Virus record (IMG/VR): IMGVR_UViG_3300033141_005909
Location: 1 to 39,344 of that record
DNA: 39,344 bases
Reading direction: 5' to 3' (one strand)
DNA from: a virus
Shown: piece by piece, positions 4,553 through 28,058 of the stretch
How the letters are laid out: each line of letters begins with the position of its first letter
Numbering within the stretch: the first letter of the stretch is position 1
The notes under the pieces: model-generated
Databases searched by the model: none
Told to the model about the DNA's origin: nothing
The model's input: the letters and a program-made list of their open reading frames with translations, nothing else
Program-made: the position numbers and the translations under genes

Positions 4553-4993
4553 ATGGCAATAAGTAAATCAAATTTGTATGAAGAAGCATACAATGTAGTG
4601 AAAGACCTCATTACTAAATATATTTCTGATCCAACTAAAGCATATAAAAGAAAATGGATTTATTCATCAATGCCTGATATTTCCAAGCCAAGATTTAAAT
4701 TTCCATTTATTATAATAAATTCTCCAGATATTTCTCAAGAAAATAGAGATTTTAATACAGGAAAAGGAAATACTTATAGAATTTTAATTACTGTTTGGAG
4801 TGATAAAGAAAGTGAAGTAGATGAATTGTCATCAGACATTCAAGCAACCTTAATTAATCATGAATCAGATTTAAATAATAATAATCTATATAATCCAGAA
4901 ATAAATTCAAGTCCTTTTAATATGGTATTAGATCAAAATGGAAAAAAACTATATAACAGGCCAATAGGAATAATTTGCAGGGGGTGGATATAA
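4553..4993 (+). CDS. Neck / tail-completion-like protein
   Basis: 146 residues. By position (after the connector, before the HK97 gp10-like gene) and by its alternating strands, for example FPFIIINSP, YRILITVWS and a final PIGIICRGWI, it resembles the small neck or tail-terminator proteins that cap the tail tube. An LSSD tetrapeptide near residue 92 is encoded by a copy of the repeated GTCATCAGACA motif. It ends immediately before the next ATG. The exact neck role is not certain. Confidence 0.55.
   Translation: MAISKSNLYEEAYNVVKDLITKYISDPTKAYKRKWIYSSMPDISKPRFKFPFIIINSPDISQENRDFNTGKGNTYRILITVWSDKESEVDELSSDIQATLINHESDLNNNNLYNPEINSSPFNMVLDQNGKKLYNRPIGIICRGWI
4828..4838 (+). repeat. GTCATCAGACA motif copy 1 (within neck gene)
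   Basis: TTGTCATCAGACA in the coding frame, read as Leu-Ser-Ser-Asp. Confidence 0.5.
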
Positions 4994-5410
4994 ATGGCAA
5001 AATCAATGCAAGTAACTGGAATTGCTGAATTAACAAAAAAATTAAAAAGAATAGAATATACAATAAAAGGAATTCCAAAAGAGGATCTTCCACAGGTTGC
5101 AGAGCAAGGAATGTTGCATGCCCAAAAAATAGCACCAAAAGCAACAGGAGCTTTAATCCAAGCAATTAAGTTTAATCATTATGGAGAAATATGGATGATT
5201 ATATCAAAACAACCTAAAAAAAAGGAATATAATTATCCTAATAGTATGCAAAAACAAACTAAACCATTGCCTTATCATATCTGGATTGAAACAGGTGTGC
5301 AACCAGCAAAAACAGGAGAAAATGCTTATATGAAAAAAACAGCACAATGGTTATCACAAGTATTATTTTATACAATTGATAATAAAATTAAACAAGCAAT
5401 CAAATCATAA
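4994..5410 (+). CDS. HK97 gp10-like head-closure / tail-completion protein
   Basis: 138 residues. It begins with GIAELTKKLKRIE, and the segment QVAEQGMLHAQKIAPKATGAL is the hallmark of the HK97 gp10-like family (PF04883), as is the IWIETGVQPAK stretch followed by a C-terminal helix. Shine-Dalgarno CAGGGGG lies about 10 bases before ATG, inside the previous gene. It helps to close the head or complete the tail. Confidence 0.75.
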   Translation: MAKSMQVTGIAELTKKLKRIEYTIKGIPKEDLPQVAEQGMLHAQKIAPKATGALIQAIKFNHYGEIWMIISKQPKKKEYNYPNSMQKQTKPLPYHIWIETGVQPAKTGENAYMKKTAQWLSQVLFYTIDNKIKQAIKS

Positions 5411-5456
5411 TGAAAGAAAAGATAGACGCTGCGTCAATTAAATTCGGAGAAATAAG

Positions 5457-6038
5457 ATGGTTAATTTAACACAACAAATATGGATGAAACAACCTTATGT
5501 TTCCATAGCTCGTATAGATGGAAATGAAATGCAATTTAGATCACGAACAAGCACATTGAATATTACTGGTGATAATTTTGATATTGAAGGTATTGAAACC
5601 TTTGGCGGTAAAGTAACAAGAATTGGCTCAAGAGAAGATATAGAAATTAGCATGGATATTTTTCCATTAAGTGCAGAGCATACTGATTTTGATGCTCTAT
5701 TTTATGGACATACTGGATCAAGTTCAATTATTACTGCAAGTGATCAACTTAAATACAGAATTTGTTTATTATGGACAAATGAAAGCGGAATAACAAGTGG
5801 TGCAGAAGCGATAGCAAGCGGTTCTGATGCATATAGAAGAATTTATGCAGAAGGATATATCACAAATATGGAAGTTAGTCAAGATGCTGGTGAAGAGTTA
5901 AAAGGAACAATTACTTATAAAACATCACCTGAAGATGAAAATGGTGATAGTAATCGTAAGATTGAATCTTGCACACCAGATGGAACACCTGTTACATTAG
6001 GAGCAGTTGCTTCATACACTTCAACAACTAAATGGTAA
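5457..6038 (+). CDS. Major tail tube protein
   Basis: 193 residues, mostly beta strand, placed between the tail-completion gene and the tail chaperone, the standard position of the tube protein. Segments such as NITGDNFDIEGIETFGG, REDIEISMDIFP and GYITNMEVSQDAGEELKG resemble tail tube proteins that mention target fields such as a raised loop and a final strand pair. Shine-Dalgarno CGGAG lies 9 bases upstream. It would polymerise around the tape measure to form a non-contractile tail; no sheath gene is present. Confidence 0.7.
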   Translation: MVNLTQQIWMKQPYVSIARIDGNEMQFRSRTSTLNITGDNFDIEGIETFGGKVTRIGSREDIEISMDIFPLSAEHTDFDALFYGHTGSSSIITASDQLKYRICLLWTNESGITSGAEAIASGSDAYRRIYAEGYITNMEVSQDAGEELKGTITYKTSPEDENGDSNRKIESCTPDGTPVTLGAVASYTSTTKW

Positions 6039-6049
6039 ATTATGAGTGA

Positions 6050-6352
6050 ATGTCAGAAGAAGAAACAGAAATAGAAAAAAAAGAGAAATTTATGAAGAGC
6101 ATAAATGATAGAATCACTACCAGTTTTAGTATAACCTTTATTCCAGTTAAGGAATTTAGAAGATTTAAAAAATTGGCAGAAGATGAATTTAGAGATAACT
6201 ATGCAATGACACTTAAATTCTTAATGGATTCATGGGAAAAAAATCAATTTTATTTAGAACAAATTAATTTATTATGGAAAGAAATTCATACTCTCAAAGA
6301 AGAGAAAATTAAATTGAAAGAAATGAAGCCAAAAACATTTGGTGAAAATTAA
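6050..6352 (+). CDS. Small helical protein in the tail operon
   Basis: 100 residues, almost all helical: an acidic start, then PVKEFRRFKKLAEDEFRDN, LKFLMDSWEK and a Lys/Glu-rich coiled coil. The middle recalls short helix-turn-helix or ribbon-helix-helix style proteins but lacks a clear first strand. It lies between the tail tube and the tail assembly chaperone and ends two bases before the chaperone ATG at 6354. Function unknown. Confidence 0.5.
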   Translation: MSEEETEIEKKEKFMKSINDRITTSFSITFIPVKEFRRFKKLAEDEFRDNYAMTLKFLMDSWEKNQFYLEQINLLWKEIHTLKEEKIKLKEMKPKTFGEN

Positions 6353-6353
6353 A

Positions 6354-6734
6354 ATGTTAGATATAGAAAGACTAAGAGCAAAGCCAAAAGAAGTGGAGTT
6401 TATGGGTGATACTATCAAGATTTATCCATTGAAAACCAAACAGATTGCTGAATTAGGGGAATTACAAGCCAAAAATAAGTTTGCAGATGCAACAATGATG
6501 TTAATCAGAGAAACATTTAATAGAATGTTACAGGAAGAACATATTGCCAAATTGATAGAACAAGGCAAAACTCGTGAGGAAGCAAAAAAAATACCCTTTA
6601 AAAAACTTACAGATGACGATATTGATGAATTTGATCAAAAAAGTTTGAATGAATTGATGCCTCATATAATGGAAGTTAATGGTTTGAAAATTCCAGAAGA
6701 AAAAGACAATCAAAAAAAAACTTCAAAGCAATAA
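6354..6734 (+). CDS. Tail assembly chaperone, short (gpG-like) form
   Basis: 126 residues from ATG 6354; a TTG 15 bases earlier lies inside the previous gene and is unlikely. The position between tail tube and tape measure, the size, a start with strands (VEFMGDTIKIYPL) and a helical remainder fit lambda gpG-like chaperones. The frame ends at 6734, shortly after a nine-A run. A -1 slip there gives the longer GT form (ending 6940). The chaperone coats the tape measure during tail assembly and is absent from the virion. Confidence 0.75.
   Translation: MLDIERLRAKPKEVEFMGDTIKIYPLKTKQIAELGELQAKNKFADATMMLIRETFNRMLQEEHIAKLIEQGKTREEAKKIPFKKLTDDDIDEFDQKSLNELMPHIMEVNGLKIPEEKDNQKKTSKQ
6712..6720 (+). 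promoter_or_regulatory. Programmed -1 frameshift site (A AAA AAA)
   Basis: Nine A residues read in frame as caA AAA AAA Act, a perfect X-XXY-YYZ slippery heptamer. Shifting -1 moves ribosomes from the short chaperone frame, which stops at 6732-6734, into a frame open to 6940. That second frame has no good start codon of its own at its beginning. Confidence 0.75.
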
Positions 6735-6940
6735 TTGATCAACAAATTAGCGGCAAAACATCAACCTTAGATCAAATAATTTGTGAAGGCACATATGCTC
6801 TTTTAAGAAACATGCAAGGATTTAATATTGAAGGAATTATGGAAATGCCAATTTCTCAATTCTTTTTCTTACTTGATGGTCTTTCTAAAGAATATAAAGA
6901 GTGTGAAAAGAAAAATACAAAAAGGGGGGTAAGGAAATAA
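6719..6940 (+). CDS. gpT-like extension of the tail chaperone (frameshift product)
   Basis: About 73 residues in the -1 frame relative to the chaperone (NFKAIIDQQISGKTSTLDQ onward, through MEMPISQFFFLLDGLSKEY). The frame runs open from the slippery A run to a stop at 6940, directly abutting the tape-measure ATG. Length and placement match the T half of G/GT chaperones. The full fusion would be about 195 residues from 6354. There is no independent Shine-Dalgarno at its start. Confidence 0.7.
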   Translation, partial: NFKAIIDQQISGKTSTLDQIICEGTYALLRNMQGFNIEGIMEMPISQFFFLLDGLSKEYKECEKKNTKRGVRK

Positions 6941-8419
6941 ATGGTTCAAACTGTTCATGATATAATTATTAGACTGAAACAGGAAGGAATGAATGAGACA
7001 GCTAAAGCTGTGCAACAACTTGGGCCTCAATTAAAAAATTTAAAGAAAGGAGAAACAGCTGTTGCTTCTGGAACTAAAATAATGAATCAAGGTGTGCAAA
7101 AAGCAACTATTGTTTTTAAACGAAATAAAAAAGGTATCTTAGAAGTTTCAAAATCATTAACTACAAATGTTTCAAATATGAGAAGATTTAGAATGGAATG
7201 GTTGTCTGTTATGTTCTTTTCTATGAATGTCTCACGACGACTTAGAGGAATAATGATGGGTTCTGTATCAACTTTAACTAAAATTGCTGGAAAAAATAAT
7301 GAGGCGGCACAAACTGTTGCCGCACTTTCAGCACAATTCACTTACCTTAAATTTGCAATAGGAAGTGCAATCGGTGAAGCACTTCAACCATATATGCCAA
7401 TTATTGCTAAATTTGTGGATAAAATGGTGGAGTTTATTGAACAACATCCTGATTTAGTTTTCAAAGGACTTGTTGGTGCTTTTGTAATTTTTGCAGGATT
7501 AAATATCGCAGGACAATTAGCTTTAGTAGCAACTGGTTTTATGCAAATTGCTACAAATGCAATGGCAGCAAAAACAGCTGTAATGGGATTTAAAACATTA
7601 GGAGCAATAGCAACAGCAACAATTGGATTATATATTGCTTATGGGGGAATAAAAGATATAATTAAAGGAATTTCTGAAGCGGATTGGAAAACAATTTTAA
7701 AAGGAATTCTTACAGCAGGAGTTGGTGGAGCCCTTGTAGGTGCGGCGGCGGCGATTGCTCTCGGAACTCCATTACTTGCATCAGCAGTAATTGGAGCAAC
7801 TGTTGCTGTTTCAATTGGATTAATACTTGCATTTTATATTAAAGATACTAAAAGAATTGAAAGATTAAGAGCAAGAGGTTTATCAGAAAAAGATATAGCT
7901 CAATTAAAAATAGAAGAAATATTTGGAATTGATACAGGTATTTCTGGATTTGCAAGGATGCAGAGAGAAGTAGATGATTTTCTTCAACAAGCAAAAAATT
8001 CAGCAAATGAAACAAGTGAGAGTTGGCAAAATTCATGGAGGCATGCATTAGGAAAATATAAATTATCTACTCCTTTAGGATGGTTATTATTACAAGTAAG
8101 TCAAGAATGGATTAATATGGCTAATGTAGCAACATCTCAAATTGATAGAATTATAGCTAAAATAAATACAATTCCAAGAGAGATTGTTACAACTGTGAGA
8201 ATAAGGACTATTGGAGGAGGAATTGGAGTAAGAGGATTTGCTACTGGGACAGATTATGTTCCAAAAACAGGAATGTATTTGCTTCATAGAGGAGAACAAG
8301 TAATTCCCAACAATATTACAAATAATGTGAATGTAAATGTTTCTGGAAATCAAAATGCAAATGCAATTGCTCAGGCAATTTCAGAAGAATTAAATAAAAA
8401 ATTGAGGAGGTATATCTAA
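6941..8419 (+). CDS. Tail tape measure protein
   Basis: 492 residues. A helical N-terminal third (GMNETAKAVQQLGPQLKNLKK) is followed by the MRRFRMEWLSVMFFSMN segment common to archaeal-virus tape measures. Long hydrophobic Gly/Ala-rich stretches occupy about 175-300 (GGALVGAAAAIALGTPL), and the end has GTDYVPKTGMYLLHRGEQV, a typical tape-measure C-terminus. Shine-Dalgarno GGGGGG lies about 20 bases upstream with AAGGA closer. At roughly 0.15 nm per residue, a known rule for siphovirus tapes, the tail would be about 70-75 nm long. The hydrophobic segments may also help genome delivery across the membrane. Confidence 0.82.
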   Translation: MVQTVHDIIIRLKQEGMNETAKAVQQLGPQLKNLKKGETAVASGTKIMNQGVQKATIVFKRNKKGILEVSKSLTTNVSNMRRFRMEWLSVMFFSMNVSRRLRGIMMGSVSTLTKIAGKNNEAAQTVAALSAQFTYLKFAIGSAIGEALQPYMPIIAKFVDKMVEFIEQHPDLVFKGLVGAFVIFAGLNIAGQLALVATGFMQIATNAMAAKTAVMGFKTLGAIATATIGLYIAYGGIKDIIKGISEADWKTILKGILTAGVGGALVGAAAAIALGTPLLASAVIGATVAVSIGLILAFYIKDTKRIERLRARGLSEKDIAQLKIEEIFGIDTGISGFARMQREVDDFLQQAKNSANETSESWQNSWRHALGKYKLSTPLGWLLLQVSQEWINMANVATSQIDRIIAKINTIPREIVTTVRIRTIGGGIGVRGFATGTDYVPKTGMYLLHRGEQVIPNNITNNVNVNVSGNQNANAIAQAISEELNKKLRRYI

Positions 8420-10709: not shown

Positions 10710-10724
10710 TATTTATATAGATAA

Positions 10725-10745: not shown

Positions 10746-10761
10746 AAAAATTATTAATAAG

Positions 10762-11124
10762 ATGGTTTTGTTAAATGATGCAAAAACTCAGGTAAGGAAT
10801 TTTTTAGCAACAGGAAATGCAGATTATCCTAAATATATGTTATTTGGTTCAGATACAACAAGTGCTAATGTAACAGATTCAACAATGACTTCTTTGATTG
10901 CTACTGCATCATTTGAAAATGTTAATGTAGGAGTTACAAGACAAGTTAAATATGAAGCAATCTTATTAACAACACAGGCAACTGGTTCAGATATATCTCA
11001 AATTGGATTGTCATCAGACACAACAGGAACATCTGGAACATTATTTACTAAAGAAAATATAAATACAATCACAAAAACTAAAAACTTTGATATTCAAGTA
11101 ATTGAAATATTAGAAATAACTTAA
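10762..11124 (+). CDS. Tail fibre-associated protein
   Basis: 120 residues. The layout YMLFGSDTTSANVTDS, followed by beta strands and then GLSSDTTGTSGTLFTKENI, is typical of small tail-fibre or baseplate proteins that have a 'site-specific bonus' start and end in strands. The LSSD stretch is encoded by a copy of the repeated GTCATCAGACA motif (11010-11020). It probably belongs to the fibre set with the next gene, one base downstream. Confidence 0.55.
   Translation: MVLLNDAKTQVRNFLATGNADYPKYMLFGSDTTSANVTDSTMTSLIATASFENVNVGVTRQVKYEAILLTTQATGSDISQIGLSSDTTGTSGTLFTKENINTITKTKNFDIQVIEILEIT
11010..11020 (+). repeat. GTCATCAGACA motif copy 2 (within fibre-associated gene)
   Basis: TTGTCATCAGACA in the same coding frame as copy 1, again Leu-Ser-Ser-Asp. 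Confidence 0.5.
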
Positions 11125-11125
11125 A

Positions 11126-14104: not shown

Positions 14105-14357
14105 AATAGAAATAAAATCAAATACTTGTTGGTTATGCGGTGAAGAAACTGCTCAAAAAGAAAGACATCATGCAATACCTCAATTTTTAAAACCAAAAAA
14201 GAATTTATGCATCACAGTTTGTAGAAAATGTCATCAAAAAATAAATTCTTATACAATTCAATCAGTTCCAAAATTTAAAGCAATTGATAACTTGTTAAAT
14301 AGTTTAAAAGAAGCAATTAAAAAATATGAGAAGAAATTAGATAGATATAGAATATGA
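14097..14357 (+). CDS. Small HNH endonuclease-like protein
   Basis: 86 residues. CWLC (11-14), the HNH core ERHHAIPQF (His24, His25) and VCRKCHQKIN (Cys42, Cys45, His46) are the pattern of small HNH nucleases. A basic coiled-coil ends the protein. It lies at the end of the zinc-protein operon, overlapping the glycosyltransferase by four bases. Targets unknown. Confidence 0.65.
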   Translation: MDEIEIKSNTCWLCGEETAQKERHHAIPQFLKPKKNLCITVCRKCHQKINSYTIQSVPKFKAIDNLLNSLKEAIKKYEKKLDRYRI

Positions 14358-15010
14358 AAATTTTATTAGTTTATTTAGAAGAAGATGCAAAATTAAAAAG
14401 ATGTTTAAATAGCTTGAAAAAGTATTCTCCAGAAATAGAGGTTGTCAAACACAAAGCAGATTCAACTAAAACAAATGTAGCAGAAGAAATATATAATGAA
14501 TTAATCCCTAAAATAGATGATGATGTAATGATATGGCATCCAGATATGGAAGCAACAGAAGGATGGTATGAGAAACTTAAAAATTATTATTCTGTATTTG
14601 ATGTTATTGGAGTTAAATTAGTTTATCCAAATGGATTGATAAATCATTATGGTGGATGGTTGAGGCATGATGGTTGTGGAATTCATCCACATCAATATTG
14701 CATGGATTTTTGTTTAGAAAAACCAATGGAATGTGTTTATGTTACAGGACCAGGAACTTTAATAAAGAAAAGAGTTTTTAATAAAGTAGGTAAATGGGAT
14801 AATCAGTTTGATTATTTCATTGATGTAGATTATTGCTTTAGAGCCAGAGAAAAAGGATTTAAAGTAGGAGTAGTGCCAGTAAAATTAATCCATCATGAGA
14901 GAGGAGATAATTCAAAAAGATGGAATCAAAAAGAAAATATAAAGCGATTAACAAATTCATGGAAAAAATTCATAACTAAACATCAAAATATATTAGCAAA
15001 ATACAAATGA
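14354..15010 (+). CDS. Family 2-like glycosyltransferase
   Basis: 218 residues. Starts with the GT-A nucleotide-binding strand MKILLVYLEED; the metal-binding region reads DDDVMIWHPDME (around 57-68). A GPGTLIKKRVFNKVG segment and FIDVDYCFRAREKGFKVG (around 125-175) are the acceptor-side signature of GT2 enzymes acting on cell-surface glycans. It would transfer a sugar from a nucleotide-sugar to a glycan or protein. First gene of the modification block, overlapping the radical SAM gene by four bases. Confidence 0.72.
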   Translation: MKILLVYLEEDAKLKRCLNSLKKYSPEIEVVKHKADSTKTNVAEEIYNELIPKIDDDVMIWHPDMEATEGWYEKLKNYYSVFDVIGVKLVYPNGLINHYGGWLRHDGCGIHPHQYCMDFCLEKPMECVYVTGPGTLIKKRVFNKVGKWDNQFDYFIDVDYCFRAREKGFKVGVVPVKLIHHERGDNSKRWNQKENIKRLTNSWKKFITKHQNILAKYK

Positions 15011-15864
15011 AACTTCCAATAAGATATAATTATGCTGAAGCATATTTAACATTAAGATGTAATTTAGGATGTAGTTATTGTATAAATGATAATTCTGGAG
15101 TAAAAAGAAACAGGAAAGAATTAAGTGCAGATGAATGGGCAAAAGCATTAAATAGAATAGATTTTGGAGAAACACCTTTAACTCTTGGAGGTGGAGAACC
15201 TACATTATATAAAGGATTTTATAATTTATTAGATAAATTAAAGCCAGATATTCAGGTTGATTTATTAACAAATTTAACTTTTAATGTTGATGAATTCATC
15301 AAAAAAACTAAACCAGAAAGATTTACTCAAAATAATATTCCAAGTTATAAATCAATCAGAGCAAGTTTTCATCCAGAAAAACACAACCCAAAAGATTTAG
15401 TAGATAAAGCAGCTAAACTGCAGAATGAAGGATTTCAAATTGGAATTTTTGCATTAAATCATCCTAAAAACATGATAAAAAATATGGAAATAGCTGAATT
15501 AGCAAGAAAAAATAAAATCTATTTCTTTATAAAAGATTTTTTAGGCTGGTTTGACGGACAATTGTTTGGGTATTATAAATATCCAAAAGGATTAGATGGT
15601 GATAGAAAATTAGCAGATTGCAGAACAAAGGAGTTGTTAATTGCTCCAGATGGTGAAATTTATAGGTGTCATAGAGATTTGTATCATGCTGAAAATCCAG
15701 TTGGACATTTATTAGATGAGAATTTTGAAATTCAAGATGTTTTTAGACCTTGTAAAAATTATGGATTATGTAATCCGTGCGATTTAAAATTAAAAACCAA
15801 CCGCTTCTTTCAAATGGGGAATTGTAGTGTGGAAATAATTGAAAATGAAACAAAAAAAATATAG
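15007..15864 (+). CDS. Radical SAM protein (first copy)
   Basis: 285 residues. The CNLGCSYC cluster (Cys18, Cys22, Cys25) binds the 4Fe-4S centre; LGGGEPTL (61-67) is the SAM-binding GGEP motif. The C-terminal part has Cys residues at about CRTK, CHRD, PCKNYGLCNPCD, resembling a SPASM-like auxiliary cluster region. Such proteins carry out radical modification of sugars or peptides; the substrate cannot be read from the sequence. Flanked by glycosyltransferases, so a glycan or precursor is likely. Confidence 0.78.
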   Translation: MKLPIRYNYAEAYLTLRCNLGCSYCINDNSGVKRNRKELSADEWAKALNRIDFGETPLTLGGGEPTLYKGFYNLLDKLKPDIQVDLLTNLTFNVDEFIKKTKPERFTQNNIPSYKSIRASFHPEKHNPKDLVDKAAKLQNEGFQIGIFALNHPKNMIKNMEIAELARKNKIYFFIKDFLGWFDGQLFGYYKYPKGLDGDRKLADCRTKELLIAPDGEIYRCHRDLYHAENPVGHLLDENFEIQDVFRPCKNYGLCNPCDLKLKTNRFFQMGNCSVEIIENETKKI

Positions 15865-16588
15865 GTTATTAAGTATTTGTTCAAGTAGAACATATCCTAA
15901 AAGATTAAGAGAAATGCTGAAAAGTTGGAAGCGAACAAGAACTAAAGGATTAAGCAGAATTTTAATTTATATTTGGGATGAAGACCCAAAAATTGAAGAA
16001 TACAAAAAAATTATAAAAGAATTTAATGATGAAGATATTGAATTTATTTTAGGTAAATCAAGATTTATGACAGAAGTTCTAAATTATATTTCAACAGAAG
16101 TTTATCCAGATTATGATTATTATCAAAATATTAATGATGATCATTATTATGTAGTTAAAGGGTGGGATAAAATGATGATTGATCCTTTGGATAAGAATGG
16201 AGGATGGGGGATTAGTTATTGTAAGGGAAAAAATGATGCTCATAATCCTAATGCAGAGATTATTTCAGGAAAAATAGTAAGGGCATTAGGTTATTATTAT
16301 TATCCAAAATTCAGACAATTTGGCATTGAAGGTTTTGTTATATCTTTAGGACAAGCATGCGGATTTTTTTTGGTTTCAGAAGTAATCGAACATAGATGTA
16401 TTAATATTGGTTATGGAGAAAAAGATGAAACATGGAAATTCATTTATAGTCCTTCAGAAGCATTGCATGCAAGAAGTGCAAGTCAGGAATGGAAAAGCAA
16501 AATGGATGGAGAATTGAAAAAGATTAGAGATATAATTGCAACAGAAATGAAAGAGGATTTTAAAAAAGGGGGGATTGAATATAGATGA
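15845..16588 (+). CDS. Glycosyltransferase-like protein (GT-A type)
   Basis: 247 residues from ATG 15845; a TTG six bases earlier is less likely. Two N-terminal segments (YRLLSICSSRTYPKRLREML and ILIYIWDED) look like the nucleotide-binding half. INDDHYYVVKGWDKMM at about 100-115 carries a DDH in place of DxD, followed by a C-terminal region with AGGF-like GQACGFFLV. It overlaps the radical SAM gene by 20 bases. The sugar and acceptor are unknown. Confidence 0.6.
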   Translation: MKQKKYRLLSICSSRTYPKRLREMLKSWKRTRTKGLSRILIYIWDEDPKIEEYKKIIKEFNDEDIEFILGKSRFMTEVLNYISTEVYPDYDYYQNINDDHYYVVKGWDKMMIDPLDKNGGWGISYCKGKNDAHNPNAEIISGKIVRALGYYYYPKFRQFGIEGFVISLGQACGFFLVSEVIEHRCINIGYGEKDETWKFIYSPSEALHARSASQEWKSKMDGELKKIRDIIATEMKEDFKKGGIEYR

Positions 16589-16848
16589 AAGATGAAGAAG
16601 AAATAATCAGGTGGGTGATGCAGGATGAAATTGTTAAATCCAATAAATTAGTTGCTGAAAGAGCATGTAAATTGATACTCAATTATTGGGAAAATCATTT
16701 GAAAGAATTAAGAAAAAAATTATTGGAGAAAGTTGATTGGGTATGGGATAAATATTCTGAAACAGGCAAGATGGATGGAGCGAAATTATCACATATTATA
16801 AGAGTTTATGATGATGAATTAAAAAAGAAGTTTGGAATAAATGGATAG
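16585..16848 (+). CDS. Hypothetical helical protein in the modification block
   Basis: 87 residues, helical, with Trp-rich patches (WVMQDE, NYWENH, VDWVWDKYSE). Shine-Dalgarno-like GGGGGG lies about 15 bases upstream. Four-base overlap with the glycosyltransferase and eight bases with the membrane gene. No family recognised. Confidence 0.45.
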   Translation: MKDEEEIIRWVMQDEIVKSNKLVAERACKLILNYWENHLKELRKKLLEKVDWVWDKYSETGKMDGAKLSHIIRVYDDELKKKFGING

Positions 16849-17233
16849 CCGTATAAAAAGTGCAAGTAAAAGTATTTTCTGGAGAATAACAGGAATTATT
16901 ATTTTAGCAGTAATTACATATGCCTTTACAGGAAATTGGATACAAACAGGATTAATTACATTTATTCATCATTTCATATTTATTTTTGTATTTTATTTTC
17001 ACGAGAGAATTTGGATTTTAAATAAATCAATTACAGGATTAAAAAGAAAAATTTTAAAGATGTTTATTTATGAAACCTTTTTAGGAAATATAATTTTAGG
17101 TTCAATTACTTATTTGATTACAGGCAGTTGGAAGGCAATGACTGCAATTACACTAACTTATATTGGAATTAAACATATACTTTATATTTTTAATGAATTT
17201 ATTTGGGAGAATAAAAATTTTCCAATAAAATGA
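16841..17233 (+). CDS. DUF2061-type membrane protein (internal duplication)
   Basis: 130 residues, four likely membrane helices. The first half (KSIFWRITGIIILAVITYAFTG, ending in HERIWI) is a DUF2061 repeat, and the second half (YETFLGNIILGSITYLITG, ending in NEFIW) is a degenerate second repeat. In many genomes DUF2061 proteins occur beside APS kinase genes; here a CysC-like fusion lies at 30082. Its role is not known, perhaps transport or anchoring linked to sulfate or nucleotide chemistry. Confidence 0.65.
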   Translation: MDSRIKSASKSIFWRITGIIILAVITYAFTGNWIQTGLITFIHHFIFIFVFYFHERIWILNKSITGLKRKILKMFIYETFLGNIILGSITYLITGSWKAMTAITLTYIGIKHILYIFNEFIWENKNFPIK

Positions 17234-17637
17234 GAATAGTATATTGTTATGTGGTTTGTGATATCCTTCATATAGGGCATATTTTATATTTAGAAAATGC
17301 AAAAGCAATGGGAGATTTATTAATAGTCGGGGTTTTAACAGATGAAGCAGTAATGGAAAAGAAACCAAAACCAATATTCTCATTTGGAGAGAGAATTAAA
17401 ATAATTAAAAGTTTAAAATGTGTAGATTTAGCAATCCCGCAGGTTTCTTATTCTCCAATTGAAAATATTACAAAATTAAAACCAGATATTTTAATGGAAA
17501 GTGATAGTCATTCAAAAAAAGATTTAAAAAAAATCCTGAAAACCTGTGAGAAATTAGGAATAAGAATGGTAATTACGCCTTATTATCCTGAACAAAATTC
17601 AACTAAATTAAAAAATAAAATTAAAAATGGTAAATGA
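17230..17637 (+). CDS. Cytidylyltransferase-like nucleotidyltransferase
   Basis: 135 residues. The catalytic HxGH is present as CDILHIGHILYLENAKAMGD (His14-Ile-Gly-His17 region), with IVGVLTDEA after it and EQNSTKLKNKI at the end in place of the usual S-T-x-K/R-I motif. Size and pattern match glycerol-phosphate or ethanolamine-phosphate type cytidylyltransferases, which make CDP-activated headgroups. Next to a LicD-like gene, it may supply a CDP-linked phosphate group. Confidence 0.72.
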   Translation: MRIVYCYVVCDILHIGHILYLENAKAMGDLLIVGVLTDEAVMEKKPKPIFSFGERIKIIKSLKCVDLAIPQVSYSPIENITKLKPDILMESDSHSKKDLKKILKTCEKLGIRMVITPYYPEQNSTKLKNKIKNGK

Positions 17638-18166
17638 AAATATGAAAAATGCACTTTTTGAATTTGATGATATAGCAAAAGAGTTGGAAATTACTTATTG
17701 TCTTGGACAGGGAACTTGTTTAGGATTTTATAGAGATGGAGATTTTATTAAAGGAGATAATGATATTGATATTGAAATTTGTGTTGATAAAGTAAAATTA
17801 AAAACATTGTTTAATAGATTGCTTGAAATGGGATATGAAGATGAAGATGGAATTGCATACTGCAATATAATTTCAGATAAAGATTATGAATTAAATCAGC
17901 ATTTTAAAAAAGAATTTTCAATGCTTGATATTTTATTTAAATTTGATGGATATAGAAAAAAGTTTCATAAAAAATTTCAGACAATTGAATTTGAAGGAAG
18001 AACATTTAATCTGCCTTCTCCAGTTGAGGAATATCTTGAATTAGAATTTGGAAAAGACTGGAATAAGCCAAAAGATTTGAAAAGCAGGGGAATGAAATCA
18101 TTGCATCCTTATATTGTGGGTAAAGCAATTAAATTTCCAATTATTAATTATTTTAAATATGGTTAA
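17627..18166 (+). CDS. LicD-like phosphotransferase
   Basis: 179 residues. YCLGQGTCLGFYRDGDFIKG followed by DNDIDIEI is the LicD/fukutin nucleotidyltransferase-fold signature (active-site Asp residues in DNDID). LicD enzymes move phosphocholine or similar groups from CDP carriers onto glycans. The preceding cytidylyltransferase fits as its supplier. Its start overlaps that gene by 11 bases. Confidence 0.72.
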   Translation: MVNENMKNALFEFDDIAKELEITYCLGQGTCLGFYRDGDFIKGDNDIDIEICVDKVKLKTLFNRLLEMGYEDEDGIAYCNIISDKDYELNQHFKKEFSMLDILFKFDGYRKKFHKKFQTIEFEGRTFNLPSPVEEYLELEFGKDWNKPKDLKSRGMKSLHPYIVGKAIKFPIINYFKYG

Positions 18167-19244
18167 AAGAATGATGGATTCTACTAAGATGATTTATCAT
18201 TTAGATAGAGTTAAAGATTTTTATGAGAAAGGAAAAAAAGTATCTCCTATTTTAATCAATATTGGAGTTACTAAAATGTGCAATTTAGATTGTTGTTATT
18301 GTTTTGGAGTAAAACAAGGTAGAGACCAAAAAAGCATGATTCAAAGAAAACCGCTTTTAAGATTATTTGAACAAGCCTCAAAATTAGAGATTAAAGCAAT
18401 GGAAATTATTGGAGATGGAGAACCAACTATCAATCCTCATATTTATGATGCAATGGATATTGGAAAGAAAAATGGATTGGATATGGCTTTTGGAACTAAT
18501 GGTATTCTGCTGGATACAGATGAAAAAAGAGAAAATATATTGAGAAATTGCAAGTGGATGAGAATTAATTTATCAGCAGGAAATAGAGAACAATACAAAC
18601 AAATTCATAGGCGGGATTATTTTGATAAATTAATTAAAAATATTGAAAGATTAGTTGAATTGAAAAAAGAAAAAGGATATAAATGTGATATTGGATTGCA
18701 GGCTGTTTTTGTTCCAGATTTAATGAATCAGCATATGTTGGATGAGAGTGATTTGGCTGTTAAATTAGGAGTGGATTATTTTGTAATAAAACAATGCAGT
18801 CTGCCTGAAGGCAATACAAAAGTAGCAGATGTAGAATTTGATGTAAATAGATATGATGATGAAGATATTCAAAATCTTTTAAAAAAGTGCGAAGCAAAAT
18901 CAACTGATAAAACAGAGATTATTCCAAAATATAAAGCAATTAGTCTGAAAGGAAACAGGCCTTATGACCATTGTGTTGATGTTCCTTTTCTATTTCAGGT
19001 GAGCGGGAATGGAAAGTGTTATCCATGCGGTTATTTATTTGGTGATGAAAGATATGAATATGGAGATTTAAATAAACAAAGTTTAAAAGAAATTTTAGAA
19101 AGTGATAGATATTGGAAAATTGTAAATTATATGATTAATGAATTTGATGTTCATACACAATGTGCAGGACATTGTCGTCATGACAGTTCAAATAAATTTG
19201 TTTGGGATTATTTAAATAAACCAGAATCAATTAATTTCATATGA
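18159..19244 (+). CDS. Radical SAM protein with SPASM-like C-terminus (second copy)
   Basis: 362 residues from ATG 18159, which sits at the end of the LicD gene; an in-frame ATG at 18114 is inside LicD and unlikely. CNLDCCYC (Cys41, Cys45, Cys48) is the radical SAM cluster and IIGDGEPT (83-90) the SAM-binding loop. The C-terminus has CVDV, CYPCG and CAGHC clusters that would hold extra Fe-S clusters, as in SPASM or twitch proteins. It is distinct in length from the first copy. Substrate unknown, probably a glycan precursor or peptide. Confidence 0.76.
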   Translation: MVKRMMDSTKMIYHLDRVKDFYEKGKKVSPILINIGVTKMCNLDCCYCFGVKQGRDQKSMIQRKPLLRLFEQASKLEIKAMEIIGDGEPTINPHIYDAMDIGKKNGLDMAFGTNGILLDTDEKRENILRNCKWMRINLSAGNREQYKQIHRRDYFDKLIKNIERLVELKKEKGYKCDIGLQAVFVPDLMNQHMLDESDLAVKLGVDYFVIKQCSLPEGNTKVADVEFDVNRYDDEDIQNLLKKCEAKSTDKTEIIPKYKAISLKGNRPYDHCVDVPFLFQVSGNGKCYPCGYLFGDERYEYGDLNKQSLKEILESDRYWKIVNYMINEFDVHTQCAGHCRHDSSNKFVWDYLNKPESINFI

Positions 19245-19834
19245 AAAAGGAGTTAATTAAGTTTGAAAATAAAGTAAAAAAATTATTTGAAAAGGGAAAA
19301 CTTCCTTATCCAATTCATTTTTGCGGGGGAAATGAGGAGGATTTAAGCATAATTTTTAATTCAATTAAAAAAAATGAATGGGTATTTACAACTCATAGAA
19401 ATCATTATCATTGTTTGTTGAAAGGTATGCCTAAAAAAGAATTATTGGAAAGAATTAAGAGGGGAAGAAGTATGAATGCTTATTCTAAAAAATACAAAAT
19501 ATTTGGCAGTTCAATTGTAGCAGGAAATTGCGCTATTGCAGTTGGTGTAGCTTTGGCAATTAAAAGAAAAAAGAAAAAGGAAATGGTCTGGTGTTTTGTT
19601 GGTGATGGAGCAACAGATGAAGGGCATTTCTGGGAAGCATTAAGATATGCAGAAGGACATGATCTGCCTATAATTTTTATTGTAGAAGATAATGGATTGG
19701 CTGTTGATACTCCGCAAAATGAGAGATATAATTTAATAAAAGATTTGGATAAATATAAAAAAGTTTTTAGATATGAATATAAAAGAAAATATCCGCATGT
19801 TCAAACAGGTAAATGGGTAGATGCTTATATGTGA
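19241..19834 (+). CDS. Thiamine-diphosphate enzyme, E1-alpha-like subunit (minimal)
   Basis: 197 residues. The TPP-binding motif GDGATDEGHFWEALRYAEGH begins at 121 and ends in VEDNGLAVDT (about 148-157); the RSMNAYSKKYKIFG and SIVAGNCAIAVGVALA segments are as in E1-alpha or transketolase N-halves. Usual E1-alpha proteins are about 330 residues; here the C-terminal part is missing, leaving the cofactor domain. It pairs with the next gene, which supplies the pyrimidine-binding domain. The reaction is unknown, perhaps ketol or decarboxylation chemistry on a sugar precursor. Confidence 0.75.
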   Translation: MKKELIKFENKVKKLFEKGKLPYPIHFCGGNEEDLSIIFNSIKKNEWVFTTHRNHYHCLLKGMPKKELLERIKRGRSMNAYSKKYKIFGSSIVAGNCAIAVGVALAIKRKKKKEMVWCFVGDGATDEGHFWEALRYAEGHDLPIIFIVEDNGLAVDTPQNERYNLIKDLDKYKKVFRYEYKRKYPHVQTGKWVDAYM

Positions 19835-19835
19835 A

Positions 19836-20321
19836 ATGGATAAAATGAAAATTAAAAAAGAAATGGAAGAATTGGCAAAAGATAAAAAAGTTGTTTTTAT
19901 TGGTTATAATTTGAAATATGGAAGCCAATGCTATGGAAGCTTAAAGAACATTCCAAAGAAGCAGATAATTGAAATGCCTGTGGCGGAAAATCTAATGACT
20001 GGAATAGCAATAGGGATGAGTTTAGAAGGATATAAGCCTGTTCTAATATTTGAAAGACACGACTATATGTTGAATGCATCTGACCAATTAATCAATCATT
20101 TAAGCAAAATAGAGCAGATGAGTGATGGAGAATTCAAGCCTCATGTAATTATCCGTTCAATTTTAAAAACAAAACCCTTTAAACCTGATGAAACTCATAT
20201 TCAAGATTTTACAGATTTTTTTAAAAAACATTTAAGTTTTCCAGTTAAAGAATACGAGCAGGGCATTTATTTGAAGGCATTAAAAGAAAATAAATCAATT
20301 ATGGGGGTTGAAAGATGGTAG
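19836..20321 (+). CDS. Thiamine-diphosphate enzyme, E1-beta-like subunit (minimal)
   Basis: 161 residues from ATG 19836; ATG 19821 inside the previous gene is an alternative start. The pyrimidine-binding domain is clear: VVFIGYNLKYGS, then EMPVAENLMTGIAIGMSLEG, with the Glu that activates thiamine, and a DYMLNASDQLINHLSKI stretch. The C-terminal transketolase domain of normal E1-beta is absent. With the alpha gene it makes a compact two-subunit enzyme. Confidence 0.73.
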   Translation: MDKMKIKKEMEELAKDKKVVFIGYNLKYGSQCYGSLKNIPKKQIIEMPVAENLMTGIAIGMSLEGYKPVLIFERHDYMLNASDQLINHLSKIEQMSDGEFKPHVIIRSILKTKPFKPDETHIQDFTDFFKKHLSFPVKEYEQGIYLKALKENKSIMGVERW

Positions 20322-21608: not shown

Positions 21609-21699
21609 AGGCGAGGTGGCACCTCTCTCTTGCAGGAAGAGTAATATCCTGTCAGTAGCTTGATACTGAGATTAAGATAACCTGTCTAAGTCGTCAGTT

Positions 21700-21710
21700 G
21701 TCATCAGACA
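21700..21710 (+). repeat. GTCATCAGACA motif copy 3 (in structured RNA)
   Basis: Within a 16-base stretch GTTGTCATCAGACAGG (21697-21712) that forms the right arm of a hairpin; an exact inverted copy lies at 28046-28061. Confidence 0.6.
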
Positions 21711-21814
21711 GGCCTTAAAAATAAAACGTATGCTTACGGAATAATCCAATAAATATATATCTTTCCAAAAATCTGAGGAGTAAGCTAACTCAGAAAAATC
21801 AGGAAGATATTATA

Positions 21815-21821
21815 TTTTTTT
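21815..21821 (+). terminator. T7 run after a long hairpin
   Basis: T7 directly follows the imperfect outer stem ATCTTTCC/GGAAGAT (21759-21808) of the structured segment; possible transcript end within it. Confidence 0.35.
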
Positions 21822-21930
21822 GGCATTATTCGCCGTGACAATGTCATGGCTGTCCTAAGCCATACCCGTGAATATGCTAATAATACTAAAAAATATATAT
21901 AATATAAGTAAAATAACAATATTATAATAT

Positions 21931-21959: not shown

Positions 21960-21966
21960 CATTGAA

Positions 21967-22191
21967 ATGAAATATCAGATAGTTGAAATTAAGTCTAAAG
22001 ATAAAGAAGGAAATTATTTAATTCAGAGATTTATAGATACTGATCAAGGCTTAATTCATCTTCCAATTAAATGGGAATATATTGAGCAAAAAAAAGATGA
22101 AAATATAATTAATATTAAAACAATTGGAGAAATAGATTTAGAATTGCCTTATATTTCAAAAGGAAAATTAAAACCAGTTGAATATAAATGA
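21967..22191 (+). CDS. Hypothetical small protein under hairpin control
   Basis: 74 residues, mostly beta (YQIVEIKSKDKEGNYLIQRF, LIHLPIKWEYIEQ), ending in a Pro and Lys tail. Shine-Dalgarno AAAGGT lies in the stem described at 21931. ATGA overlap with the sulfotransferase-like gene. Function unknown; possibly a small OB-type or KOW-like fold. Confidence 0.5.
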   Translation: MKYQIVEIKSKDKEGNYLIQRFIDTDQGLIHLPIKWEYIEQKKDENIINIKTIGEIDLELPYISKGKLKPVEYK

Positions 22192-22862
22192 ATGTAAAGA
22201 TATACGGCTTAAGAAGGTCTGGGACAAATTATATCGCAAGTTTGTTGGAAAACAACTTTAAAGATGATGTTTTAATTCATATTGGCTGTTCTAAACATGA
22301 TATTCCTCAAATTTTAACAAAAGAGAAAATTCAAAAATGGATTGATGTTAGAAATTGTCATCAGACACCCTAATCAAAAAAGAACACTTTAAAGACATAT
22401 ATCAAATAGATAGAGTCTTAAATCAGGAAACTAAATATATTTATATATATAAAGATATTTTCAGCTGGTTATGGTCTTATAGAAAATATTCAAGATTTAA
22501 TCTTAATCATCCATTTGAACCCCCTTTAAAATTAACAGAATTCAGCCAAAAACAAAAGATTAGGCAGTTAGTTGATAAATAACTTCACATATTTAAAAAA
22601 AGCACGCCAGATTGGCTGTATTCTAATCAAATATGAAGAACTATTAAAATCGCCCTTTAAAATATTAGAAAAATTAGAAAAAAAATTTAAACTCACTAAA
22701 AAGAAGAAAAACTTTCAAGATAATGAATTCTATATTGGAGCAGGATTTACTCAATCTAATGAAAGATTTAACAAATCCTTTTATTTGAAAAAAGAATATT
22801 TAAAGGATTATACAAGAGAACAAGTTGATTTTATCACAAATCTTCTAAATAATTATTCTTAA
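22188..22862 (+). pseudogene. Sulfotransferase-like gene broken by two frameshifts
   Basis: Three frame pieces read as one protein: GLRRSGTNYIASLLENNF (P-loop-like sulfate-donor site, RRSGTNY), then TKYIYIYKDIFSWLWSYRKY, then CILIKYEELLKSPF. The first shift lies at 22356-22370, exactly at a GTCATCAGACA motif; deleting those 11 bases (22357-22367) restores the frame. The second shift is near 22580, where two bases appear missing before AACTTC. Together they look like a decayed gene, or a sequencing error at one site. A sulfotransferase would use PAPS, which the CysC-like kinase at 30082 could make. Confidence 0.6.
22357..22367 (+). repeat. GTCATCAGACA motif copy 4 (at a frameshift)
   Basis: Sits at the first break of the sulfotransferase-like gene; removing these 11 bases restores the frame. 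Confidence 0.6.
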
Positions 22863-24145: not shown

Positions 24146-24202
24146 TTCTTAAAATGTTAAGCGATTATCAAATTAAAAAAAAAGAAAAAAAATAAATTTT
24201 TT

Positions 24203-24990: not shown

Positions 24991-24991
24991 T

Positions 24992-25334: not shown

Positions 25335-25537
25335 TCTAAATCTGAAATGTCCGTTTGCAGAAGATTTAAACTTTGAAATCTATGTTCTTCAATTCTTTCT
25401 AAAATACGATTTTTCAAATCAATTGGAATGTCTGCACTGCTCGTTTCTTTTTCTAATTGTTCAAACCTCTTTAATCTGTCATCTATTTGGTTGGTAGCAA
25501 TCGCTTCTTTAAACTTCTCTTTAATTATCTCTAACAT
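25331..25537 (-). CDS. Hypothetical helical protein
   Basis: 68 residues from ATG 25537, placed 6 bases after a strong Shine-Dalgarno AAAGGAGGT. Helical with mixed charge (IKEKFKEAIATNQIDD, FEQLEKETSS). ATGA overlap with the short zinc protein. Not recognised. Confidence 0.5.
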   Translation of the reverse strand: MLEIIKEKFKEAIATNQIDDRLKRFEQLEKETSSADIPIDLKNRILERIEEHRFQSLNLLQTDISDLE

Positions 25538-25541
25538 TTTT

Positions 25542-25571
25542 TTACCTCCTTTCAATTATTTTAATATCCAT
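25542..25571 (-). other. Nine-residue leaderless leader ORF
   Basis: ATG 25571 is about 26 bases from the TATA-like box and codes MDIKIIERR then stop. The Shine-Dalgarno of the following gene (AAAGGAGGT) lies within its end, so ribosomes ending here could reload at 25537. Coupling leader likely; the peptide itself need not matter. Confidence 0.4.
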
Positions 25572-25593
25572 TTTATTTTTTGCCCTTTAAATT

Positions 25594-25601
25594 TATTTAA
25601 A
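25594..25601 (-). promoter_or_regulatory. TATA-like box on the minus strand
   Basis: TTTAAATA on the minus strand, centred about 26 bases from ATG 25571, with an AT-rich surround. Confidence 0.5.
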
Positions 25602-25659
25602 TTTAATTCAACATTACAATCAAAAAAAATTTACAATCAAAAAAAATAAAAATCTTTTC

Positions 25660-26049
25660 TTATTTTATCTCTCTATGATATTCTTCAATTTTCTTTAAAA
25701 TCTCTTGTGCCTGTTTCTTATCTATTGTTTCATTATTTAATTTTTCTTGTAAATACTGAAAAAAGTCATTATCTATAAGTGCCTGTTCCAGACAACAATA
25801 AGCGGAAGTTACCAACTGCCTGTTTAAACTGCTGTTATCTATAAGTCCCTCGTCTGCATATTCTAATAAATTGGTTTCTTCTATAAATTTAAGGGCTGTT
25901 TGGTTGTCTTGTGGCGTGTTGCTGTCTATTTCTTCGTGTGCTATATCCCAAAAATAAACTTCTCTCTCTGTCTCTATGTGTATAAGTTCGTCCTTTACTC
26001 GCTCTAAAATAGCATTTAAGGTATTCTTTATTATTTCTTCTGTTTCCAT
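25660..26049 (-). CDS. Hypothetical acidic helical protein
   Basis: 129 residues (IIKNTLNAILERVKDELIH, then LIDNSSLNRQLVTSAYCCLE). Strong Shine-Dalgarno AAAGGAGGT 7 bases before ATG. About 100 bases of intergenic DNA precede it, holding two tiny possible leaders and a TATA-like region. Function unknown. Confidence 0.5.
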   Translation of the reverse strand: METEEIIKNTLNAILERVKDELIHIETEREVYFWDIAHEEIDSNTPQDNQTALKFIEETNLLEYADEGLIDNSSLNRQLVTSAYCCLEQALIDNDFFQYLQEKLNNETIDKKQAQEILKKIEEYHREIK

Positions 26050-26173
26050 TCTTCTTTACCTCCTTTCAATTCTTTAATTATGCCTTTTATTTTTAATTTC
26101 ATTTTTTTTAAACATCAAATTCCCCCTTTAATTTAGAAAATTAACAAAAAAATAAATAAATATAGTCATCTTT

Positions 26174-26569
26174 TTAGTTTTCTACTCTTGGAGCGATTAT
26201 AATCCTGAAAAACTCATTTTCTAATTTAATCGGGAAGTCATCTAATGAGTAAACTTTTATGGATTCCCCTGATTCTTTTAAAATTTTAACTGCCTTTTCA
26301 AGATATTCTGCGGATATTTTAACCCCTGTTTTAACTTCCCGATTATAATCAAGAGTCGGATCTTCTCTTGCGGTGTCTTTATCAATAAATCGTCTTAAAA
26401 GTTTTTTTGCGTAGTCATTAAGTCCAGTTATACAACAAACATTTGCATCATCAAAAACAGCATAATCCCTGTTTAATACTTCCTCTTCTGTCGGATTATT
26501 CTGCTGAATCTCAAAAATCCTGTCCAGTGCTTTTAAAACTTTAACTTCCTGTTTTAAATCTAATTCCAT
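26174..26569 (-). CDS. Hypothetical protein
   Basis: 131 residues. It has a helical start (QEVKVLKALDRIFEIQQ), a DANVCCITGLNDYAKKLL segment and a strand-rich end (IKVYSLDDFPIKLENEFF). Both a TATA-like TTTATATT about 27 bases upstream and a Shine-Dalgarno AAAGGGGG lie ahead of ATG. No family recognised. Confidence 0.5.
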   Translation of the reverse strand: MELDLKQEVKVLKALDRIFEIQQNNPTEEEVLNRDYAVFDDANVCCITGLNDYAKKLLRRFIDKDTAREDPTLDYNREVKTGVKISAEYLEKAVKILKESGESIKVYSLDDFPIKLENEFFRIIIAPRVEN

Positions 26570-26601
26570 TTTAAACCCCCTTTCAGTTTTTTGAATATAA
26601 A

Positions 26602-26619
26602 CCCGCCATTTAAGGCGGG
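26602..26619 (-). terminator. Hairpin CCCGCC/GGCGGG between minus-strand genes
   Basis: A perfect six-base GC stem with loop ATTTAA, in a very AT-rich setting, lies between the end of the HExxH gene and the promoter of the next. Probable terminator or processing site for the upstream transcript. Confidence 0.5.
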
Positions 26620-26648
26620 ATATTTTAAAAAAGCGGTGAGTTTTATTT

Positions 26649-27071
26649 TCATCTGATAATCCCCCATTTTAGTTTTGCAGTTTCTGGATAATCCTTCTTA
26701 ATATACTCCTTCACTCTTTTATCAATTCTCTTCAATCCCCTATTAACCGCCATCTGTGTTCTGATTGCTATATGTCTTTTACTTCTTACCCTAATCTTTC
26801 TTTTGATTGGAATCTTATAAGCCCTCATCACCTCAAAACTAAACATTTCACATAAATACTCCTGCAAATACATAGGTTTGACTTTTGAGTTTACCTTATG
26901 CCCTATTTCGTGGAGCCCAACTTGTAATCTCTCAGCATTAATAGGTTTTGAAATATACGCCTTATTCTTTGATTCTGAATATCTTCCAGTATTTGACTTA
27001 AAGAAATACTCAAAATTAACTTGATTCTCTTTTGCAACTTTCTCAAAAATTTCTATATATTTATTTGTCAT
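26649..27071 (-). CDS. HExxH zinc metallopeptidase-like protein
   Basis: 140 residues from ATG 27071; a TTG 33 bases earlier is unlikely. QVGLHEIGHKV carries the HExxH zinc site, followed by LQEYLCEMFSFEVMRAY where a third ligand could lie. The layout recalls ImmA/IrrE-type peptidases that cut repressors, though the rest is basic and unlike that family. Starts in an ATGA overlap with the membrane-type gene upstream. Could control viral induction. Confidence 0.55.
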   Translation of the reverse strand: MTNKYIEIFEKVAKENQVNFEYFFKSNTGRYSESKNKAYISKPINAERLQVGLHEIGHKVNSKVKPMYLQEYLCEMFSFEVMRAYKIPIKRKIRVRSKRHIAIRTQMAVNRGLKRIDKRVKEYIKKDYPETAKLKWGIIR

Positions 27072-27232
27072 TCTATTAGGATATAATTCCCACCCCCCAA
27101 CCAATTTTTATAAATAATAAAAGAAAAAAAGGATAAGAAAAAGAATCTTATCCTACTCAATAAGGAAGGTTTATATAACCTTATCTTATTCTTTCTAAGT
27201 GCCTCACACACTCTTTTATTTATTGCTTTCAT
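27068..27232 (-). CDS. Small protein with a hydrophobic segment
   Basis: 54 residues from ATG 27232, the leaderless start set by the TATA box at 27252-27259. The first 20 residues are basic (INKRVCEALRKNKIRLY); the end has FFFLSFFSFIIY, which could be a membrane helix. Four-base overlap with the metallopeptidase supports coupled translation. A terminator-like hairpin lies inside the gene. Confidence 0.45.
   Translation of the reverse strand: MKAINKRVCEALRKNKIRLYKPSLLSRIRFFFLSFFSFIIYKNWLGGGNYILIE
27129..27153 (-). terminator. Hairpin plus T run inside the first minus-strand gene
   Basis: AGGATAAG/CTTATCCT pair perfectly; on the minus strand the stem is followed by CTTTTTTTCTTTT. This resembles an intrinsic terminator 80-100 bases after the start, so it may attenuate the minus-strand operon or end a short RNA. 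Confidence 0.45.
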
Positions 27233-27251
27233 ATCTCTTATTATGAAAAGG

Positions 27252-27259
27252 TATTTATA
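27252..27259 (-). promoter_or_regulatory. TATA-like box of the minus-strand operon
   Basis: TATAAATA on the minus strand centred about 24 bases from ATG 27232. It drives leftward transcription away from the divergent region. Confidence 0.55.
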
Positions 27260-27414
27260 TATTTTTCTATTCTGTTTTTTTTGAGTTATTCGGTTATTCT
27301 CGTCGGACAAAGAGTTTTTTTGTAGTTATTAGAGAATAAAAACAAACATCTTATAGTTATTGATTAATCCCATTATTAGAGCAATATGTTATATATGTTT
27401 GGATATCTATTATT

Positions 27415-27435
27415 GTAATGGAATATATCCATTAC
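27415..27435. repeat. Perfect dyad GTAATGGA/TCCATTAC
   Basis: Eight-base perfect inverted repeat with a five-base centre (ATATA), an operator-like site for a dimeric regulator such as the nearby AbrB or ribbon-helix-helix proteins. Confidence 0.5.
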
Positions 27436-27469
27436 CATAGTCCAGCCCTTCTCTTTTTCTTTTTGAATC

Positions 27470-27480
27470 GTCATCAGACA
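27470..27480 (+). repeat. GTCATCAGACA motif copy 5 (divergent region)
   Basis: Followed by GG as in copies 3 and 6; together with copy 6 it brackets the iteron cluster as an inverted pair. Confidence 0.6.
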
Positions 27481-27540
27481 GGCACAACAAAATACATAAT
27501 AAATTATACTTCTTTCTTTTTCTTATATTCCCTTATGTCT

Positions 27541-27585
27541 TATTATGTTTTATTATGTTTTATTATGCTTTATTATGCCTTATTC
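27541..27585. repeat. 10-base tandem repeat (TATTATGYTT, four and a half copies)
   Basis: TATTATGTTT twice, then TATTATGCTT, TATTATGCCT and a partial fifth unit. A period of about one helical turn places protein-binding sites on one DNA face, as with iterons. Confidence 0.6.
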
Positions 27586-27626
27586 AATCGCACAATAAGA
27601 GATATTTACAATAAGGATATGATGTT

Positions 27627-27676
27627 ATTCCAGTAAGGGTATAATCTCATTCCAGTAAGGGCTCTCTTATTGGAAT
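27627..27676. repeat. Two ATTCCAGTAAGGG direct repeats plus an inverted partner
   Basis: ATTCCAGTAAGGG at 27627-27639 and 27649-27661, spaced 22 bases (about two turns), with CTTATTGGAAT at 27666-27676 as a near-perfect inverted copy. A clustered binding site. Confidence 0.6.
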
Positions 27677-27919
27677 AATACTTATATTATAAGACAAAGG
27701 ATTATAGTCATAACTCATAAGTATAAGAGGATAATATAAAGGTTCCATAGGAAATGGGGATATCAATATTTACAAAATTCATCTCTTATTATTAATCCAT
27801 ATGGGCGGGATATGGGGGATTTTTAGTTTTATTTCTCTTATTTTGCTATACCCCTGCTTCTTGTGGAATAAAAATATATTTTTAATCAAATTTATAATCA
27901 TATAAGAGAAAAATTAATT

Positions 27920-27936
27920 ATAAGGGGGGGGCTTAT
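27920..27936. repeat. G8 tract cradled by ATAAG/CTTAT
   Basis: Eight G in a row flanked by a five-base inverted repeat, in very AT-rich DNA. Possibly a G-rich structure, or a Shine-Dalgarno-like element for the tiny ORF at 27935. Confidence 0.35.
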
Positions 27937-28039
27937 GGTTTTAGATAAAGGGAAAGTCTATAACAAACGACCATATTATTTATACCAAATTTTCAATGAA
28001 AACTATATGATTTATAGTTTAATGTTGAACTATTTATAG
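27935..28039 (+). CDS. Possible 34-residue ORF
   Basis: ATG four bases after a G8 tract, coding a Tyr-rich peptide (GKVYNKRPYYLYQIF). It may be an accident of the control region; no family recognised. Confidence 0.25.
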   Translation: MVLDKGKVYNKRPYYLYQIFNENYMIYSLMLNYL

Positions 28040-28047
28040 TTAATTCC

Positions 28048-28058
28048 TGTCTGATGAC
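28048..28058 (-). repeat. GTCATCAGACA motif copy 6 (divergent region, inverted)
   Basis: CCTGTCTGATGACAAC at 28046-28061, the exact reverse complement of the 16-base stretch at 21697. It lies just upstream of the TATA box of the rightward operon. Confidence 0.6.

Follow-up and report, generated by a model that had tools for sequence, protein, structure and literature searches.

Six copies of a strict 13-base word, a putative DNA binding site, dispersed in a probable archaeal virus

The virus record analysed here (the window, 39,344 nucleotides, 39.3 kb) carries six copies of a 13-base word, TTGTCATCAGACA, which we propose to be a putative DNA binding site read by the virus's own sequence-specific DNA-binding protein; about half of our confidence goes to this proposal. 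The copies are exact but for one base in one of them, and they are not a random occurrence; the protein nature of the reader, its viral origin and the effect of its binding are inferred. An 11-base part of the word, GTCATCAGACA, had been picked out by a first-pass annotation at six places in coding and non-coding DNA. As a matter of fact, all six were exact matches, five on the + strand and one on the − strand, and the estimate of about 0.01 chance copies was reproduced, with 0.01 expected and none of 100 dinucleotide shuffles reaching six. When all 11-mers of the window were ranked by raw count, GTCATCAGACA was in the top seven, and the words that were as frequent or more so were only near-homopolymeric A/T words. 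Under first- to third-order Markov models it came first by far: the log10 of its Poisson probability was about −15 to −16, and that of the 13-mer −16 to −17. This makes it the most over-represented word of the window, ahead by about eight orders of magnitude of the next independent word, an SD sequence (log10 P about −8).

The 11-mer stood as described, but the full common site turned out to be 13 bases long. It is exact in five copies; the copy at 27468 reads TCGTCATCAGACA, with C at base 2, which gives the general form T-T/C-GTCATCAGACA. A purine lies directly 5′ of the 13-mer in all six. Allowing one mismatch in a search of the window added nothing to the six copies of GTCATCAGACA. With up to three mismatches, 25 matches were found versus 16 expected, the set itself accounting for six of the 25, and since near-matches are thus barely above chance the site is a strict one. 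The short dyad that had been noticed is half right: the arms TGTC and GACA match in 5/6 copies, but the central ATCA is invariant and non-palindromic, so that the 13-mer is asymmetric as a whole. The GG reported to follow the three non-coding copies is indeed present at 21698, 27468 and 28048. No longer repeat was common to the flanks of the six copies, and the excess of one strand (5/6) was not significant (two-sided p ~0.2).

Table 1. Copies of the 13-base site and other features of the window.
Feature	Position	Strand	Remarks
Site copy 1	4826..4838	+	Inside tail-terminator-like gene 4553-4993; codons TTG TCA TCA GAC A (LSSD)
Site copy 2	11008..11020	+	Inside gene 10762-11124 (phrog_5417-like); codons TTG TCA TCA GAC A (LSSD)
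Site copy 3	21698..21710	+	Intergenic; GG and a weak TATA-like stretch on 3′ side; 5′ of predicted structured RNA
Site copy 4	22355..22367	+	At frame-change point of split sulfotransferase-like gene 22188-22862
Site copy 5, TCGTCATCAGACA	27468..27480	+	In long non-coding region that separates divergent blocks; GG on 3′ side
Site copy 6	28048..28060	−	Long non-coding region; GG on 3′ side; BRE/TATA of rightward operon begins at its end
Predicted archaeal BRE/TATA, CTAAAATATTTAAATG	28061..28076	+	About 20 bases before ATG at 28096; read from sequence
HNH-type endonuclease	482-949
HK97-type major head protein	2731-3690
HTH-like protein	20902		Further candidate reader
MazE/AbrB-like small protein	28286..28495	+	Rival binder; operon behind copy 6; E 0.05, weak
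CopG-like ribbon-helix-helix protein	28497..28646	+	Rival binder; operon behind copy 6; weak
TCP-1/cpn60 chaperonin	28643-30073		Pfam E 4e-91
Large terminase	33305-34750
Protein with HTH and C-terminal RHH-like domain	34737..35306	−	Candidate binder; HTH LmbU-like, ParB-DNA-binding-domain-like by fold
Portal	35574-37187

Just 3′ of copy 3, the non-coding stretch 21730-21879 folds strongly (RNA MFE z-score −5.45) and is a possible structured RNA; Rfam gave no match there, and no known RNA family or tRNA at any of the copies. The gene that holds copy 4 is split over three frames, with changes near 22355 and 22575, and its fragments searched together gave a weak Sulfotransfer_3 match (E 0.0018). 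These frame changes could be decay or assembly error; a programmed frameshift at 22355 was rejected, as no slippery heptamer was read in the right frame. Copies 5 and 6 lie in a long AT-rich non-coding region (27310-28096) that contains repeats of TTATGTTTTATTATG and eight consecutive G. A comparable region, with seven G in a row ahead of the AbrB-like gene, is present in the record of a relative, L070; such a region is a possible replication origin.

In the two intact genes, the word itself is probably selected at the DNA level. The peptide LSSD occurred twice in the 32 ORFs examined (ORF calls were mechanical), both times written TTG TCA TCA GAC, with codon shares in these ORFs of 0.19 for TTG (Leu), 0.325 for each TCA and 0.105 for GAC (Asp). 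Upon synonymous codon shuffling, 395 of 400 trials gave no coding copy, five gave one and none gave two; for this test, the four remaining copies suffice to define the motif. At 4828, the relative L066 encodes the same LSSD with commoner codons, TTA TCA TCT GAT. Since the peptide is common to both viruses, synonymous changes alone either created the word in the lineage of the window or erased it in that of L066; the genes at 4826 and 11008 align with those of relatives without length change. Taken together, the rare-codon spelling, the shuffling and the coding in L066 argue for selection on the nucleic acid. A cause at the peptide level was discarded because four copies lie outside sound coding frames.

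Archaeal-type promoters, that is, TTTAAATA or TTTATAAA with a purine-rich BRE shortly 5′ of the start, are predicted in the window at 482, 11749, 21514, 28096 and 28286, so the host is probably an archaeon. Incidentally, we noticed that the chaperonin is kept in the record of L070 (44% identity). Genes for glycosyltransferase-like, radical SAM, LicD, cytidylyltransferase and thiamine-diphosphate enzymes form a cluster at 14354-20321, presumably for surface-sugar modification, and a short N-terminal module (PIPDIxNxEYNExAxAK...TTSGSY) is duplicated at the starts of two adjacent tail-fibre-like proteins (37187-37324 and 37321).

Scans with capsid and portal alignments yielded L066 (about 73% nucleotide identity), L070/L071 (capsid identity 47%) and about 33 further contigs. 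The first-pass annotation had named absence of the motif from close relatives at these sites as evidence against it, and this applies in part: GTCATCAGACA was in none of these roughly 35 contigs (about 554 kb; 0.12 copies expected), L066 at its one comparable site included. The enrichment is thus special to this genome, and the site is lineage-specific, being confined to this virus or near kin of it. L066 (13 kb) had no copy within two mismatches, and only one of the six sites, that at 4828, could be compared there; about two copies would be expected in L066, and we estimate the chance of zero at ~0.13. A closer relative (over 80%) was not found in the collections searched, which may omit the nearest records, and searches by the RuvB-like protein, the chaperonin or the terminase alone returned no close relative. 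A literature search for the word retrieved unrelated papers only. The idea of a motif common to other viruses was also rejected: TTGTCATCAGACAGG is in 55 IMG/VR contigs, and TTGTCATCAGACA occurred just once in each of 50 whole records checked.

Dispersed words of such extremity were absent from the relatives. The two that came closest (log10 P −14.8 and −14.6) belong to near-complete genomes and look like contexts of ribosome binding or of start codons. Three words considered as analogues were all dismissed as weak or as start-codon contexts: TTGTCTTCGACT, with three coding copies in L070 (log10 P −9.4), GAGGTTAAAATGG in G084, where a ribosome-binding site is combined with a start, and TTAAGCATAATAA in G088. 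The last has five exact dispersed copies in a distant relative (L137:3847, 12681, 13209; L138:3344, 4988; log10 P −14.6) and is perhaps a start-codon context, the reverse strand reading TTATT-ATG-CTTAA. In another relative, a perfect 13-bp inverted repeat, ATCCATATTACTC / GAGTAATATGGAT, surrounds the leader of an AbrB-like gene (L081:5672-5736) and is a possible operator.

Several proteins of the window might read the site, their links to the 13-mer being circumstantial. The HTH and RHH protein at 34737 matched the LmbU regulator model NF038070 with E 2.6e-13 and 50.3 bits, below the curated cut-off of 125. With its AlphaFold model (pLDDT 68.5), Foldseek placed ParB and Noc DNA-binding domains first, at a probability of ~1.0 but with E at least 0.06, and the matches include ParB bound to parS (probability 1.0, E 0.06). 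The helical DNA-binding region comes after only about 27 residues, which leaves no room for an N-terminal CTP-binding domain. In most relatives, the RHH protein encoded at this locus, flanked by terminase and portal, stands alone (about 80 residues) and is usually on the other strand; among those examined, the HTH part was seen only in the window and in L066, whose protein is 65% identical. The pairing of an extra HTH with a dispersed site is a single evolutionary event and hence, as a link to the 34737 protein, only suggestive; no copy of the site was found at the promoter of its gene. That this protein on its own reads the 13-mer is possible but rather unlikely. The AbrB-like and RHH proteins at 28286 and 28497, encoded behind the promoter that bears copy 6, would fit autoregulation.

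Of the uses proposed by the first-pass annotation, an operator fits best. It is favoured by six copies without near-misses of the window's most extreme word, by the coding constraint, and by copy 6, which adjoins a predicted archaeal BRE/TATA and heads the operon with the AbrB-like and RHH proteins. Binding there would regulate the main rightward operon; binding at 27468 and 21698 would affect the non-coding control regions, and at 4826 and 11008 (late tail genes) and 22355 (decayed gene) the site may be a roadblock, a silencer, or a loading or partition site. The operator reading is weakened by the invariant asymmetric centre, unusual for a palindrome read by a dimer, by the lack of degenerate copies, unusual for a regulator of graded affinity, and, as regards the 34737 protein, by L066, which has the HTH and RHH protein but no copy in its 13 kb. 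The other proposed use, a recombinase site, was abandoned, as Pfam and PHROGs scans of most larger window ORFs detected no recombinase, integrase or transposase; a transposon fared no better, there being no such gene and no longer repeat around the copies.

Other readings were weighed against the operator. Instead of a transcriptional operator, a DNA-processing site (a Chi-like recombination hotspot of host or virus, or a nickase, packaging, replication or partition site) would suit a strict word dispersed over coding and non-coding DNA with 5/6 copies on one strand, in a virus that encodes an HNH-type endonuclease and whose candidate binder has its best fold match in ParB/Noc, which reads dispersed sites. 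We nevertheless regard it as unlikely, for the strand bias is not significant, recombinases were missing from the proteins scanned, and relatives that share its head and packaging genes do not carry the motif. A possibility was also that the motif acts in RNA, the five sense copies (UUGUCAUCAGACA) pairing with a viral or host small RNA and the inverted copy 6 possibly giving the complementary strand. Exactness without degenerate copies suits base pairing, for which an asymmetric site needs no dimer; four copies are sense in + transcribed regions, and the stretches from 21696 and 28047, at copies 3 and 6, offer 16-17 exact complementary bases. Yet copy 6 precedes the BRE/TATA predicted for the 28096 operon and so need not be transcribed, no Rfam family was found at any copy, and the T to C change at 27468 would break an A-U pair instead of leaving a wobble. 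We hold this explanation to be quite improbable.

If a short sequence without function had recently spread, by being copied or inserted, this might explain why the copies are identical over 13 bases and why copy 4 sits where a split gene changes frame. An inserted 11- or 14-mer, however, fits only that frame change, since at 4826 and 11008 the alignments to relatives are gap-free and hence nothing was inserted; moreover, the six flanks have no longer repeat in common and L066 encodes the LSSD of 4826 without the motif. We consider such a spread very unlikely. Chance is hardly credible: log10 P is about −16 and the relatives yielded no copy, even though some of them carry words with five dispersed copies, which resemble translation-start contexts.

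The favoured reading, a binding site for a viral protein, can be extended further. A head-tail virus whose hosts are uncultivated archaea would then run a system of sites dispersed over its whole genome, for silencing, as roadblocks or for partition, and a ParB/LmbU-like HTH joined to the resident RHH would read an asymmetric 13-bp site kept synonymously in structural genes. In this full form it probably does not hold. Dispersed operators within coding genes are already known in a few plasmid, phage and chromosome systems; if true, a synonymously kept set of operators in a virus probably infecting archaea would be a new setting, and, with about 35 related contigs lacking the site, it would show the rise of a new dispersed regulon within one virus lineage.

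Strict sites of 13-16 bp, dispersed over coding and non-coding DNA and read by a ParB-type HTH, are found in KorB-OB of RK2 plasmids, ParB-parS and Noc-NBS, and these sites are full palindromes. The window likewise has multiple exact dispersed sites, and its 34737 protein may have a ParB-type fold (Foldseek probability 1.0, but E 0.06 with a model of pLDDT 68). In contrast, its site is palindromic in the arms TGTC/GACA only, with the asymmetric centre ATCA, and the short 34737 protein carries an RHH in place of the CTP-binding domain, for which it leaves no room. In cluster A mycobacteriophages, L5-type stoperators are 13-bp asymmetric sites dispersed in the promoter and elsewhere, bound by a monomeric repressor with two DNA-binding domains whose specificity varies between relatives (PMC9283540, PMC6550527). 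The window site is also 13 bp, asymmetric and dispersed, with one copy at a promoter; it differs in having six copies versus more than twenty, one of them reversed and two within intact genes, and no homologue of the cluster A repressor was among the window proteins scanned with PHROGs. In archaeal viruses with Aca8-type regulators, the regulatory sequences of early genes are virus-specific and diverge rapidly between relatives (PMC11065993). Similarly, the element described here adjoins a BRE/TATA and is specific to one virus genome, but only 1/6 copies is at a clear promoter. LmbU combines HTH and RHH, as does the 34737 protein, and binds the palindrome CGCCGGCG (PMC6510168), whereas the window site is no full palindrome and the protein scores 50.3 bits against the NF038070 cut-off of 125. 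Although membership in none of these systems is established, by analogy the window system may work like KorB-OB, ParB-parS/Noc and the L5 stoperators.
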